In this document: positions 2,343-8,154 of the stretch, piece by piece
Layout: every line of letters starts with the position of its first letter
Position numbering within the stretch: the first letter of the stretch is position 1
NCBI GenBank assembly: GCA_903875045.1
Contig: CAIQUS010000017.1
Span: 1-64,000 of the forward strand
From: an uncultured Bacteroidales bacterium
Lineage (GTDB): Bacteria > Bacteroidota > Bacteroidia > Bacteroidales > FEN-979
Direction: 5' to 3'
Length of the DNA: 64,000 nt
Program-made: the position numbers and the translations under genes
The notes under the pieces: model-generated
What the model saw: only the letters and a program-made list of their open reading frames with translations
Databases searched by the model: none
What the model was told of the DNA's origin: nothing

Positions 2343-3383
2343 ATGGCATCAAAAGGAATATATATTTATGGGATTGTCCCTAATTTTTATGGAACCACGC
2401 ATTTTCAGTCTCTCGAAAATTCCGGTGTTTACGCAATTACCTTTGAAAATATTTCTGCCATTGTTTCAGACAGGGATAGCGTGCATCTTGACTTTTTAGA
2501 CAGAGAATCTCTTGGATATTTGCTGGTTCATCATCAGGAAACGATTGAAGAACTTATGGGGAAAGGCTTTTCCATGATTATTCCTATGCGGCTTGGCACC
2601 ATTATGGGTTCTAAAGAAGAGGTTATAAAAATTCTTGCGAACGGTCATGACTTGATTATCGATACCCTGAAAAAAATTGAATATCTGACAGAAATCGACC
2701 TTGCAGTTACCTGGGCTGATTTTTCCATAACGATTAAGGAAATCGCCGGTCATCCGGAAGTCATCGCATTGAAGGAGGATATCCTGAAAAGTGGTGAACA
2801 ACTTTCGCAGGCACATCAGGTTAAAATTGGGATGCTTTTCCAGGCGAAATTGGCTGAAAAAAACAAAAAGGTTGAATTAAAAATCCTCGAGGCTTTGTCG
2901 CAACACTGCGTCCATGTGAAAATGCATGATGTCATGAACGATCAGATGATAACCAACTCGGCATTTCTGATGAACCGGAATAAAAAGGAGAAGTTTGAGG
3001 AGGTTATTGAACAGTTGGATGATGAATTCAAAGGGCTATTGAACTTTAAATTGGTTGGCCCGCTTCCATGCTATAGTTTTTATACCATTGAGGTGAAGGA
3101 ATTGAATCAGGAACAGGTATTACTGGCCAAAAAAGAGTTGGGATTGCGTGAAGAAACTACGGAATCCGACATTAAAAAAGCATACCTGGAAAAAGCCAGG
3201 CTGTTTCATCCCGACACCCAGCAAGACAATGGTGATGAAGAAAACTTTAACAGGATCAATAAAGCATACCATACAATGCTAGAATATTCTGTAGCTGCCA
3301 GGCAGTGTTCGGATGAGGAAGTAATATCCCTGGCAAAAGAAAAAATAATCCTAAATTTAACTTTGGTAAAAATAAAAGAATAA
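2343..3383 (+). CDS. GvpL/GvpF family gas vesicle protein with C-terminal DnaJ J-domain
   Basis: N-term GIYIYGIVPN and MIIPMRLGTI typical of GvpL/F; C-term ESDIKKAYLEKARLFHPDTQQ...FNRINKAYHTML with HPD motif. Confidence 0.88.
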   Translation: MASKGIYIYGIVPNFYGTTHFQSLENSGVYAITFENISAIVSDRDSVHLDFLDRESLGYLLVHHQETIEELMGKGFSMIIPMRLGTIMGSKEEVIKILANGHDLIIDTLKKIEYLTEIDLAVTWADFSITIKEIAGHPEVIALKEDILKSGEQLSQAHQVKIGMLFQAKLAEKNKKVELKILEALSQHCVHVKMHDVMNDQMITNSAFLMNRNKKEKFEEVIEQLDDEFKGLLNFKLVGPLPCYSFYTIEVKELNQEQVLLAKKELGLREETTESDIKKAYLEKARLFHPDTQQDNGDEENFNRINKAYHTMLEYSVAARQCSDEEVISLAKEKIILNLTLVKIKE

Positions 3384-3384
3384 T

Positions 3385-4158
3385 ATGCAGCGCGACGGAA
3401 AATATATTTATTGCATCATTGATTCCAATTATGATATTAATTTAGGGCCCATCGGTGTTGGTGGCCGTGGAGATCTTGTGTCAACCATTGGGTTCGATGG
3501 TTTATGCATGGTTGTGAGCGACCATCCGCTCAGCAAGTTTGTGGTCAATCCCGAAAATATGCTGGCACATCAAAAGGTAATTGAAGAGGTTATGAAGGAA
3601 TTCCGAAGCATCCTCCCCATCAGGTTTGGCACAATCGCAGCCACTCCGGATGAAATACGTAACCTTTTGAACCGCAGGTACAGCGAGTTTATGGAGTTGC
3701 TTAAACAGTTTGAAAATAAAGTGGAACTCAATGTCAGGGGAACCTGGAAAAACATGGGAATGATTTATAAGGAGATCGACAGGGAACATGTTGAACTTCA
3801 AAAAATCAGGGCAGAAATAGACAAACTTGATGAAGGGGATGAGCGAAATGCGAAGATTGGTGAGGCTGGAAAATTGGTGGAACGTGCCCTGATCGAGAAA
3901 AAAGAGGAAGAGGCGGGATTAATAGTCGATGCTTTCCGGCGATCGGTATTTGAGTATAAACACAATAAAACAAGCGGGGATGCTATGTTTATAAACACTG
4001 CATTTTTGGTCAATAGTGGCAGGGAAGTTGAATTTGACAACATCATGGCCGACCTTGGAACCAAATACCAGGATCGCAGCGACTTTGTTTATACCGCACC
4101 CTTGCCGATTTTTAATTTTATTAAATTGAAAATTTTTCCCGAAAAATGGGAATTATAA
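3385..4158 (+). CDS. GvpL/GvpF family gas vesicle protein
   Basis: GKYIYCIID..., RSILPIRFGTIA, FINTAFLV, APLPIFNFIKL. Confidence 0.9.
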   Translation: MQRDGKYIYCIIDSNYDINLGPIGVGGRGDLVSTIGFDGLCMVVSDHPLSKFVVNPENMLAHQKVIEEVMKEFRSILPIRFGTIAATPDEIRNLLNRRYSEFMELLKQFENKVELNVRGTWKNMGMIYKEIDREHVELQKIRAEIDKLDEGDERNAKIGEAGKLVERALIEKKEEEAGLIVDAFRRSVFEYKHNKTSGDAMFINTAFLVNSGREVEFDNIMADLGTKYQDRSDFVYTAPLPIFNFIKLKIFPEKWEL

Positions 4159-4188: not shown

Positions 4189-4971
4189 ATGAGCAACGAA
4201 TCAGAAATTCCCAAGGAGGGAAAATATATTTATGGAATCATCAGACATGCCGGACCAATTGAATTTGGTCCCATGGGTATAGGAAAACGTGCCGACCTGG
4301 TTTATGGGATCAATTATAATGGTATCACTGCAGTTGTAAGTAATTCACCAATAATTATTTATGAAGCCCGCAGGGTTAACATGATTGCGCATGAGAAAGT
4401 TCTTGAGGAGGTGATGAAACATTTCACCGTACTACCTGTCAGGTTTTCGACCATTTCAGAACATGATGATGATTCAGGCATCCTGAAAATTCTTGAAAAG
4501 GATTATCAAAAATTTGATGACCTGTTGCAGAAAATGGATGGTAAAAAAGAATTGGGACTAAAAATACTTGCACAAGACACTGCAATATATGCAAGTATTG
4601 TTGAAAAATATGATGAAATCAGAAATTTGAGGGCAAAACTGATCAACCTTCCTGTCGATAAAACGCATTATCAACGTATGAAAATCGGGGAAATGGTTGC
4701 AGAAGCGCTTAAAAAAGAGACAGAGAATTATAAAAATGTAATCCTCGACGTTTTAAGCCCCCTGGCGGAAGATGTAAAAATAAACGACAATTTTGGGGAA
4801 ATGATGATCCTGAATGCTGCATTTCTGATAAAAAACATTAGCGAACCGGCATTTGATATCGCAGTGAACGAGCTGGATGAAAAATTTGGCAGTTTCATGA
4901 CTTTTAAATATGTTGGTACTTTGCCCCCTTATAATTTTGTGAACCTCGTAATTAACACGAAAGGGATTTAA
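4189..4971 (+). CDS. GvpL/GvpF family gas vesicle protein
   Basis: GKYIYGIIRH, FTVLPVRFSTI, LNAAFLI, GTLPPYNFVNL. Confidence 0.9.
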   Translation: MSNESEIPKEGKYIYGIIRHAGPIEFGPMGIGKRADLVYGINYNGITAVVSNSPIIIYEARRVNMIAHEKVLEEVMKHFTVLPVRFSTISEHDDDSGILKILEKDYQKFDDLLQKMDGKKELGLKILAQDTAIYASIVEKYDEIRNLRAKLINLPVDKTHYQRMKIGEMVAEALKKETENYKNVILDVLSPLAEDVKINDNFGEMMILNAAFLIKNISEPAFDIAVNELDEKFGSFMTFKYVGTLPPYNFVNLVINTKGI

Positions 4972-4972
4972 T

Positions 4973-5209
4973 ATGTTTCTAATTGATGATATTCTTCTTG
5001 CGCCATTGAAAGGGGTCATTTTTATCGGAAAGAAAATCAATGAGGTGATCGACAAGGAAATGTCGGACGAAGGCTCCATCAAAGAAAGGTTGATGAGATT
5101 GCAGCTGAAATTTGAAATGGATGAAATTGATGAGGAAGAATATGATAAACAAGAAGATGAATTACTGAAATTACTGGGAAATATAAGGGAGGAGAAGAAA
5201 AACAGGTAA
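4973..5209 (+). CDS. gvpG: Gas vesicle protein GvpG
   Basis: MFLIDDILLAPLKGVIFIGKKINE...; small, acidic, in gvp cluster. Confidence 0.9.
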   Translation: MFLIDDILLAPLKGVIFIGKKINEVIDKEMSDEGSIKERLMRLQLKFEMDEIDEEEYDKQEDELLKLLGNIREEKKNR

Positions 5210-5287
5210 CGGGTGACAGGTGGCGGGTGGCAGGTGGCGGGTGACACGTGACAGGTGACGGGTGACAGGTGACGGGTGACGGGAGGC
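5204..5287. repeat. Heptamer tandem array, consensus RGGTGAC, 12 units, largely alternating A/G at position 1
   Basis: aggtaac gggtgac aggtggc gggtggc aggtggc gggtgac acgtgac aggtgac gggtgac aggtgac gggtgac gggaggc; first unit contains the gvpG TAA. Confidence 0.97.
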
Positions 5288-5337: not shown

Positions 5338-5541
5338 ATGAACGCTTTTAAATGTCCGAAATGTGGCAAATTAACCGGGGGAAATGAGAAGTTTTGTGTT
5401 GAATGTGGGCAACCACTCAACGTAACCTGCCCGGAATGCGGTGAATCTTGGCGGTTTATGTTCGAATACAAGTTTTGTCCCGGTTGTGGGCATAACATGA
5501 AAAAAAGTGTGACCAGCAAATCCCAACGCGATGAGAAATAG
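5338..5541 (+). CDS. Double zinc-ribbon small protein in gas vesicle locus
   Basis: CPKCGK...CVECGQ...CPECGE...CPGCGH; SD-like ggagg upstream. Confidence 0.85.
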   Translation: MNAFKCPKCGKLTGGNEKFCVECGQPLNVTCPECGESWRFMFEYKFCPGCGHNMKKSVTSKSQRDEK

Positions 5542-5545
5542 CGTT

Positions 5546-5620
5546 CACTTGTCCACTTGCCCACTTGCCCACTTGCCCACTTGTCCACTTGCCCACTTGC
5601 CCACTTGCCCACTTGTCCAC
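5546..5620. repeat. Octamer tandem array CACTTGYC, 9 units with 32-bp higher-order period (T,C,C,C,T,C,C,C,T)
   Basis: Direct reading. Confidence 0.97.
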
Positions 5621-5648: not shown

Positions 5649-5921
5649 ATGAGTAACATTATCGATGTAAAAAAAAATGCAGTTAAGTTCCTGAAAGAGA
5701 ATATTAACTGTTATGACGTAACCGTCGTAAAAATTGAAAAAGTGCTGGAAAGCTGGATTACTATCGCAGAGGTATATGAAGACGATTCATTTTTGAAATC
5801 GATGAACATGCCGCCAAAACAAGTACGGTTGTTCTACATGGTGAAGATGGATGAAAAACTTGAGATAACCGCCTTCGAACGACTCAACTCCTTTCAGGGA
5901 ATGGATAGTGCCAGCGAGTAA
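5649..5921 (+). CDS. GvpO-like gas vesicle protein
   Basis: Short protein with VEKVLESWITIAEVYED...VRLFYMVKMDEKLEITAFERL pattern, gvp context. Confidence 0.7.
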   Translation: MSNIIDVKKNAVKFLKENINCYDVTVVKIEKVLESWITIAEVYEDDSFLKSMNMPPKQVRLFYMVKMDEKLEITAFERLNSFQGMDSASE

Positions 5922-5983
5922 ACCTGGTAAGTTTGAACGATAGATCATCGTATGTTTTTATGCCCCATATAACACCAGTGGTA

Positions 5984-6778
5984 ATGATGAACAGTCTGAT
6001 ATATACCTATTGCTTATCAAACAGCCCCCCTGAATTCAGTGAGGATGATAAGGAGCAAGGATTAAAAAGCCTCAGGTTCGATGATTTTTTCGTGATCATT
6101 AAATATGTTTCTGAAACTGAATTTTCCGAGGAAAATCTGAAAAAGAATATTGGAGATCTTAAGTGGCTGGAAGAAAATGCACGGGACCACATCAGGGTGA
6201 TCAGTATGATCATGGAGCACAGTACTGTGATCCCATTTAATTTTGGAACAATTTATCAATCAGAAAATAATTTAAAAAAATTCATTGATGACTATTCCGA
6301 TTCACTTACCGAACATCTTATTCATCTCGAATGGAAAGAAGAATGGGCTGTTAAAATTTATTGTGATCGAAAAGTACTCAACAAACAAATTGACGAATTA
6401 AGTGAGGAAGCAGCAGCTCTTGAAATGCAGATCATGGCAAGTTCTCCCGGTAAAGCTTTTCTCCTGAAAAGAAAAAAAACCGACCTGATTGAAAATGAGA
6501 TGGACCGGCTTTGTAAAAACTACGGCCAGGATTGCTTCAATGAATGTCGAAATCTGAGTGAATCAACAAGGCTCAATAACCTGCTTCCCAAGGAGTTCAC
6601 AGGAAGAGAGGATACAATGATCCTCAATGCAACGCTACTCGTTCGCAAAGACCGGACCATAGAATTCATTTCGGTTATAAGGGGATTGAAAAACAAATAT
6701 TCCGACCATGGTTTTGATATTGAAATAACCGGGCCCTGGCCCCCGTTTAGTTTTATCTCCATGAAAGAAAAAAAATAA
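5984..6778 (+). CDS. GvpL/GvpF family gas vesicle protein (ORF open from TTG 5933; ATG 5984 or 5960 plausible)
   Basis: LIYTYCL, STVIPFNFGTIY, LNATLLV, GPWPPFSFISM. Confidence 0.85.
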   Translation: MMNSLIYTYCLSNSPPEFSEDDKEQGLKSLRFDDFFVIIKYVSETEFSEENLKKNIGDLKWLEENARDHIRVISMIMEHSTVIPFNFGTIYQSENNLKKFIDDYSDSLTEHLIHLEWKEEWAVKIYCDRKVLNKQIDELSEEAAALEMQIMASSPGKAFLLKRKKTDLIENEMDRLCKNYGQDCFNECRNLSESTRLNNLLPKEFTGREDTMILNATLLVRKDRTIEFISVIRGLKNKYSDHGFDIEITGPWPPFSFISMKEKK

Positions 6779-6996
6779 TGTACGACAACGTAATTGACCA
6801 GTCAAAAGACATCACTATCCTTGAACTACTTGACAGGGTATTGAATAAGGGAGTCATCCTTAAAGGTGATATTGTTATTTCAGTGGCAGATGTTGATCTG
6901 GTATATCTCGGGGTGAAATTAATGTTAAGTTCGGTGGAAACCATGGAGCAGTTGAAATCAGGGAATGCAATATTGCCTATAAACCCCGGTAAATAA
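6778..6996 (+). CDS. GvpA/GvpJ/GvpM/GvpS-family gas vesicle protein (accessory-type)
   Basis: LLDRVLNKGVILKGDIVISVADVDLVYLGVKLMLSSVETM; TAATG overlap with upstream gene. Confidence 0.88.
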   Translation: MYDNVIDQSKDITILELLDRVLNKGVILKGDIVISVADVDLVYLGVKLMLSSVETMEQLKSGNAILPINPGK

Positions 6997-7035: not shown

Positions 7036-7803
7036 ATGGATTGGCTCATGGACTTGTTGATTTATGCCATATTATCTGTAAAAAATGATTCTGAAAAGCT
7101 AAATGTACTTTTAGCAGAAATGAAGGGTGTTGCCGGGGCGGATTTGGCTGCTGTTGCCTTTGAATCAACTTCGGTTGTGGTAAGTAACATTCAAAGGGCT
7201 GATTTAGCTGCAGATAGGAATACTGCCATTGAATACGCTGCAGTAATCGAAACCCTGTCACAACATTTTGCATTGCTCCCCGTGCGATTTGGCTCAGTAA
7301 TGGAATCCAAAGAAGCGATCATTTCCATGCTGGAGAAAAATCATCCCGACATTCAGAAAAATCTTATAAACGTTGAAAATAAATATGAATTCGGGATCAG
7401 GATTTTTTGTCAGCCCGAAATATTAAGGGCAGAACTTAGGGCAAAATCAGAAGCTATGTACAAAAATCTGTTGCCCCCGGCGACCGAAACCAAAAATTCT
7501 GCAACATGGGATTGGGTGAATAAAAAACTCAGAGAGCACAGACTGGAGGAATTACTTATAGCCCATGTAGATTCAGTCATTACTGATATTACAGAACAAC
7601 TTGACCGGTTGAATGCGATCAGTAAAATCAAAAAAATGGTTACACCAACTACGATCATTGATGGTGTTTTCCTCATTGATAAGGTGCTGAAAGATGAGTT
7701 GATTCATATTGCCGGTGATTTGCAAAATAAATACCACGGGCTAAACTTTATCTTGACGGGGCCATGGCCTCCATATAGCTTTGTTGATTTTACAGTAAAA
7801 TAG
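7036..7803 (+). CDS. GvpL/GvpF family gas vesicle protein
   Basis: LIYAILSV, FALLPVRFGSVM, GVFLID, GPWPPYSFVDF. Confidence 0.87.
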   Translation: MDWLMDLLIYAILSVKNDSEKLNVLLAEMKGVAGADLAAVAFESTSVVVSNIQRADLAADRNTAIEYAAVIETLSQHFALLPVRFGSVMESKEAIISMLEKNHPDIQKNLINVENKYEFGIRIFCQPEILRAELRAKSEAMYKNLLPPATETKNSATWDWVNKKLREHRLEELLIAHVDSVITDITEQLDRLNAISKIKKMVTPTTIIDGVFLIDKVLKDELIHIAGDLQNKYHGLNFILTGPWPPYSFVDFTVK

Positions 7804-7809
7804 CATAAA

Positions 7810-8154
7810 ATGAGTGAAAACAAGATTCTTTTCAATTCAGGATCATTTGATGGGCTTTCCGAGGAAATTGGAAAGTTGACGAATAGTGAGGATTCGAAGT
7901 TGAGGCTCACTCCCGATAATGCCGATTCAGGGTTGGCTAAACTTGTTCTGACGCTGGTTGAACTCATTCGTAAATTGGTTGAAAAGCAGGCCATGCGAAG
8001 AGTGGATGGTGGTACGCTGACAGATGAGGAGGTTGAACGTCTCGGTGAAACACTCATGAAACTTGAACAAAAAATGGAAGAGTTGAAAAAGCATTTTAAT
8101 CTCACCGACCGCGATTTGAATATCAATCTCGGCCCGTTGGGCGATTTAATGTAG
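7810..8154 (+). CDS. gvpK: Gas vesicle protein GvpK
   Basis: GLAKLVLTLVELIRKLVEKQAMRRVDGGTLTDEEVERLGETLMKLEQKMEEL; typical GvpK. Confidence 0.92.
   Translation: MSENKILFNSGSFDGLSEEIGKLTNSEDSKLRLTPDNADSGLAKLVLTLVELIRKLVEKQAMRRVDGGTLTDEEVERLGETLMKLEQKMEELKKHFNLTDRDLNINLGPLGDLM

Follow-up and report, generated by a model that had tools for sequence, protein, structure and literature searches.

A GvpF gas vesicle protein fused to a J-domain, a putative J-protein dedicated to gas vesicles

The window analyzed here, a stretch of 64,000 nucleotides from an uncultured Bacteroidales bacterium, begins with a cluster of gas vesicle (gvp) genes, all on the forward (+) strand. One of them, at 2343–3383 (+), is a single uninterrupted open frame of 346 codons, and its 346-residue product carries a GvpL/GvpF domain (PF06386) followed by a J-domain (PF00226), both above the Pfam cut-offs. 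Its immediate upstream neighbor is a CDC48/VAT-type double AAA+ ATPase (129–2285, +; CDC48_N and two AAA domains), and the contig starts only 128 bases ahead of that gene. The missing upstream part is probably on contig C127 from this genome, since that contig stops near ArsA and includes GvpN and a gene for a CxxCxGxG protein. Immediately downstream of the fusion is a GvpF paralog (3385–4158, +), followed by another (4189–4971, +), which matches Anabaena GvpF at 1.3e-24. Then come GvpG (4973–5209, +; PF05120, 1.8e-19), a double zinc ribbon protein with related proteins in 22 loci (5338–5541, +; PF12773, 1.3e-10), and a weakly matched GvpO-like protein that is conserved in 59 loci (5649–5921, +; PF05800, 9.6e-4, below cut-off). 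The run is completed by a GvpL-type paralog (5933–6778, +; NCBIfam GvpL, 78.9 bits), a GvpA-family protein of the GvpJ/M type (6778–6996, +; PF00741, 4.3e-15, with GvpM the best NCBIfam match, below cut-off), a second GvpL-type paralog (7036–7803, +; GvpL, 57.4 bits), and GvpK (7810–8154, +; PF05121, 1.3e-34). The four other GvpF/L paralogs all match PF06386 and, by Pfam profiles, none has a J-domain, as a preliminary description of this DNA had said. Short tandem repeats of 7–8 bases lie between genes, several of them between gvp genes (1–124, 2299–2336, 5202–5283, 5546–5620, and others).

The two parts of the fusion can be told apart by sequence and by predicted structure. The PF06386 match (9e-49) takes up residues 5–247 (2355–3083, +) and profile positions 1–244 of 245. 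By score this part is GvpF-like rather than GvpL-like (NCBIfam GvpF 75.8 bits vs. GvpL 44.5), with both values under the equivalog cut-offs. The protein matches the solved GvpF structure 6l5d at 2.8e-15. Against solved GvpF it reaches 59.7 bits, and the GvpL-type paralog at 5933–6778 reaches 14.3. A separate sequence match (1.1e-6) is to the solved J-domain 2cug. The J-domain extends from about residue 256 to 318 (3108–3296, +), and PF00226 covers residues 266–312 at 4.1e-11 (43.3 bits; gathering score, 27.8). An AlphaFold2 model built from 15 aligned fusions (mean pLDDT 87, pTM 0.79) contains both folds and places J-domain helices at 256–266, 274–288, and 296–321, with the HPD motif (residues 289–291; codons cat ccc gac at 3207–3215, +) between the last two. 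In Foldseek comparisons, the model aligns with 6l5d at a TMt of 0.79 and with solved J-domains at a probability of 1.00, the TMt being mostly 0.4–0.7 for single-domain structures; the E-values for the J-domain are about 0.005 and above because it covers only a small part of the chain. The preliminary description had recognized helix II, the HPD loop, and helix III, which Pfam, AlphaFold2, and Foldseek confirm, and a short helix I (about 256–266) is present too. Two of the checks it had proposed, a profile search for both domains in one protein and a structure prediction, came out in its favor. No other Pfam profile passes its cut-off, and the chain does not have the G/F linker, zinc finger, and C-terminal domains (CTDs) of a Class A DnaJ. 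The last 28 or so residues, after the J-domain, end in a further conserved strand, LTLVKIKE (residues 339–346; 3357–3380, +), modeled as a strand at 339–345 and with its V, K, I, and K columns 81%–89% conserved. A chance match to the J-domain is ruled out by the score, the fold, and the invariance of HPD; the fusion is also more than chance because a second copy exists in the same genome and orthologs exist in other phyla.

The invariance of HPD comes from an alignment of 84 complete fusions, from which one paralog (L081, where LPE replaces HPD) and two fusions that run off their contigs (L083 and L088) were left out. Across all 84, no column of the J-domain is invariant except H, P, and D. 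The column before them is Phe in 62%, and the one after is most commonly Asn or Lys (20% each). Selection of the sequences cannot explain this pattern, because the search patterns never touched the J-domain; the one exception is that L081 was set aside. Other features of a J-domain are mixed. In the numbering of E. coli DnaJ, the column that matches Y25 has Tyr in 87% of the fusions, and the one that matches F47 has Phe in 96%; the equivalent of K26, part of the basic face that contacts DnaK, is mostly Leu, and the equivalent of R36 is not kept. No clear QKRAA-like helix IV is seen in the aligned fusions. One could consider that the C-terminal domain has only a structural role, as a J-like module for dimerization or for docking to another Gvp, and no longer acts with Hsp70. 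J-like folds without Hsp70 activity exist, and the lost K26 and R36 equivalents and the lack of a clear helix IV would fit such a module. Against it stand the invariance of H, P, and D alone among the J-domain columns and the DnaKs of six gas vesicle clusters, which group as a separate clade, and we think it very unlikely. To judge from these residues, the J-domain looks functional, its activity on Hsp70 being inferred.

HPD is lost only in an odd paralog and in an isolated relic. The paralog (L081:8001-9047, +) lies in an incomplete cluster, and its genome also contains a normal copy (L050). The relic (L191:6394-7293, +) has a truncated J-domain with YPD, no longer matches PF00226, and has no other recognized gvp gene nearby; most of the fusions that turned up when 396 genomes of the phylum were scanned come from the family and genus group of its host. 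Such decay where the other cluster genes are missing would be expected if the domain is retained for gas vesicles.

The fusion is widespread and not peculiar to the genome of the window. A second gvp cluster of that genome includes another copy, with 69% identity along the whole protein, and the scan of 396 genomes found further full-length relatives. In some gvp clusters of the same phylum that scan found none; therefore, the fusion is no universal requirement. A scan of species-representative genomes, in which the best 80 of 204 related stretches were kept, placed relatives among those 80 in metagenome-assembled genomes (MAGs) of Bacteroidales, Ignavibacteria, and Chlorobiaceae; in Polaribacter filamentus and P. 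irgensii 23-P; and in Spirochaetales, Lentisphaerae, Omnitrophota, and Desantisbacteria. The titles of MAGs may be wrong; the two Polaribacter are isolates. Both domains pass the Pfam cut-offs in relatives from other phyla too. In Octadecabacter arcticus 238 (Alphaproteobacteria), the fusion is on a plasmid and is annotated merely as a GvpL/GvpF family protein, and its J-domain, at 28.0 bits, is barely over the cut-off. The gvp cluster of this plasmid (L141:6014-15204, +) has transposase genes on either side. For Pseudomonadota, only plasmids were covered. Surveys of two further phyla, centered on one Spirochaetales and one Lentisphaerae genome, found the fusion in few genomes only.

The fusion frame is under purifying selection. 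Between pairs of relatives, the dN/dS of the J part is mostly 0.07–0.25, similar to that of the GvpF part, with dS high in many pairs; the exception, the pair L041/L042, is based on few changes. The preliminary description would have been refuted by evidence of a lost stop codon, and one could likewise suppose that a GvpF gene became attached to a piece of DnaJ by read-through or an assembly error. Nothing was found in favor of such an artefact. Against it, orthologous fusions occur not only in both gvp clusters of the window's genome but also in Polaribacter and Octadecabacter isolates and in several phyla, and the frame is under selection, so that the artefact can be set aside with next to no doubt.

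The history of the fusion was read from a tree of 128 GvpF/L proteins that used only about the first 260 residues, and therefore the J-domain does not contribute to it. All 32 sampled fusions, the relic L191 included, make up one group, which requires one change (SH-aLRT 95). The branches of Octadecabacter and of L028 are long, and therefore their exact places are less sure. As far as these sequences go, the fusion arose once in the sampled tree; several separate fusion events, the other history considered, are unsupported, given the one change and with the place of Octadecabacter less sure.

The company the fusion keeps is conserved as well. It sits in a gvp cluster, flanked by GvpF, GvpG, GvpK, and GvpA-family genes, and the gene order is conserved: in 52 of 59 loci the gene directly upstream of the fusion encodes the CDC48-type ATPase, and in 59 of 62 there is a GvpF/L gene no more than 60 bp downstream. 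Of 56 clusters, 52 contain Hsp20 and 54 contain ArsA. Upstream of GvpN, 29 of 48 loci have a stand-alone protein with CxxCxGxG repeats; the one in L099 matches the central domain of DnaJ (PF00684, 2.7e-9). Both gvp clusters of the window's genome have one (L189:7905-8213, −, and L204:3646-3957, −). The fusion thus holds a conserved place in the operon among other chaperone-like proteins. These neighbors can also be read differently. The J-domain could recruit Hsp70, together with the CDC48-type ATPase, mainly to dismantle or recycle failed or collapsed vesicles and aggregated GvpA and not to assemble new ones. An unfoldase so regularly next door and the frequency of Hsp20 speak for such a role, as does the aggregation and proteotoxicity of GvpA noted in passages of PMC11445434. 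The fusion gene is located among assembly genes, however, and GvpF is thought to bind monomeric GvpA ahead of its entry into the shell (selected passages of PMC9501494). Dismantling as the main task therefore seems unlikely, if not to be dismissed.

Six gvp clusters in five genomes encode a DnaK beside or among the gvp genes (L063, L085, L089, L093, L100, and L193, the last being the second such cluster of the L093 genome). The proteins are 595–601 residues long. The hosts include P. irgensii, in which the gene lies between a GvpF/L gene and gvpK, and P. filamentus, and both Polaribacter genomes have a separate housekeeping-type DnaK too. The gvp-linked DnaKs, from distantly related hosts, form one clade (100/99), distinct from housekeeping DnaK. 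In the tree, this clade sits next to housekeeping DnaKs from the window's genome and G412, not next to those from Polaribacter. The simplest reading of this tree is a duplication in the lineage of the window's-genome and G412 DnaKs, which would have been followed by transfer with the cluster. The gvp-linked DnaKs lack the acidic tail of housekeeping DnaKs, and all of them keep the RIINEPT or RIVNEPT stretch, whose arginine makes the contact with HPD in E. coli DnaK. A DnaK in the cluster is a minority trait, seen by a strict count in 4 of the 46 loci with enough downstream sequence, plus L100. No private DnaK was found in the window's genome, which has a single full-length one, on contig C176, and therefore its fusion would use that DnaK.

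Taken together, the favored reading is that the fusion is a J-protein dedicated to gas vesicles, in which the GvpF-type domain holds GvpA-family subunits and the J-domain brings DnaK. In the absence of biochemistry, we put its probability at about three in four. Passages of PMC9501494 and PMC11445434 describe the GvpF of other organisms as a binding partner, and proposed chaperone, of GvpA, and their GvpL as an assembly platform that contacts other Gvps. By analogy, the GvpF-type domain would bind the hydrophobic shell subunits of the GvpA family, or the assembly complex around them, and its union with a J-domain would bring DnaK to these subunits. The J-domain would stimulate DnaK through the HPD loop, and Hsp70 may then take over or release aggregation-prone subunits at the sites of vesicle nucleation and growth. 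The partner would be the housekeeping DnaK here and, in some relatives, the dedicated DnaK paralog of the gvp cluster. The binding and stimulation of Hsp70, the binding of GvpA, the client, and the step served (assembly as opposed to turnover) are all inferences. Counting against a J-protein that recruits DnaK are the rarity of in-cluster DnaK, the loss of the K26 and R36 equivalents, and the lack of a full-length fusion relative in some clusters. The preliminary description had suggested that the fusion ties a gas vesicle component to Hsp70 recruitment; this idea is supported, and the invariance of HPD and the monophyly of the gvp-linked DnaKs strengthen it, with stimulation still undemonstrated.

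Compared to known systems, the N-terminal 250 residues are those of a GvpF/GvpL protein (PF06386; solved as 4qsg and 6l5d) in predicted fold and in position in a gvp cluster, but the chains of solved GvpF have only 250–253 residues, to which the fusion adds the J-domain and the terminal LVKIK strand. Its plan is that of class C (DNAJC-type) J-proteins, in which a J-domain with HPD shares the chain with an unrelated domain that presumably determines the client. An example of this type is HscB, which is specific for the iron-sulfur scaffold. The fusion differs from such examples in that the partner domain is GvpF, the J-domain is C-terminal, and the Hsp70 activity is unmeasured. A Class A DnaJ combines J-domain, G/F linker, CxxCxGxG zinc finger, and CTDs; a gvp cluster with the zinc-finger gene has two of these parts, but on separate polypeptides and with no CTD seen, and their joint action is conjectural. 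It is possible, though we would not wager on it, that the fusion and the zinc-finger protein act as a split DnaJ and, with a private DnaK in some clusters, make up an Hsp70 machine that loads GvpA-family subunits into the shell; the same reading would have the private DnaK spread with the gvp cluster.

The gas vesicle cluster of P. irgensii 23-P is of the same type, with ArsA, Hsp20, and several L/F genes, and the occurrence of Hsp20 and ArsA genes with gas vesicles, those of P. irgensii included, was already noted in 2010 (PMC2963123). The passages seen of that paper do not mention the J-domain or the in-cluster DnaK. The preliminary description knew of no account of the fusion, and none of either the fusion or the gvp-linked DnaK was found in the open-access literature searched (titles, abstracts, and selected passages, with subscription journals mostly outside). 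On the best reading, what is new is a second, gvp-linked clade of DnaK and a J-protein devoted to a new client system, for which biochemistry is absent. How the extremely hydrophobic shell subunits stay soluble and get delivered is an open question, according to passages of PMC11445434. The fusion, with the clusters' own DnaK, is a concrete candidate for an energy-driven chaperone that a single point mutation in HPD can test, and the private Hsp70 of some clusters makes Hsp70-assisted vesicle assembly directly testable. There may also be a bearing on what limits the heterologous production of gas vesicles, a question of importance for acoustic reporter genes.

A protein of about 227 residues with no Pfam match recurs at the ends of gvp clusters (L055:10432-11112, +, and relatives). 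In L063, L089, and L093, its relatives just precede the DnaK gene.
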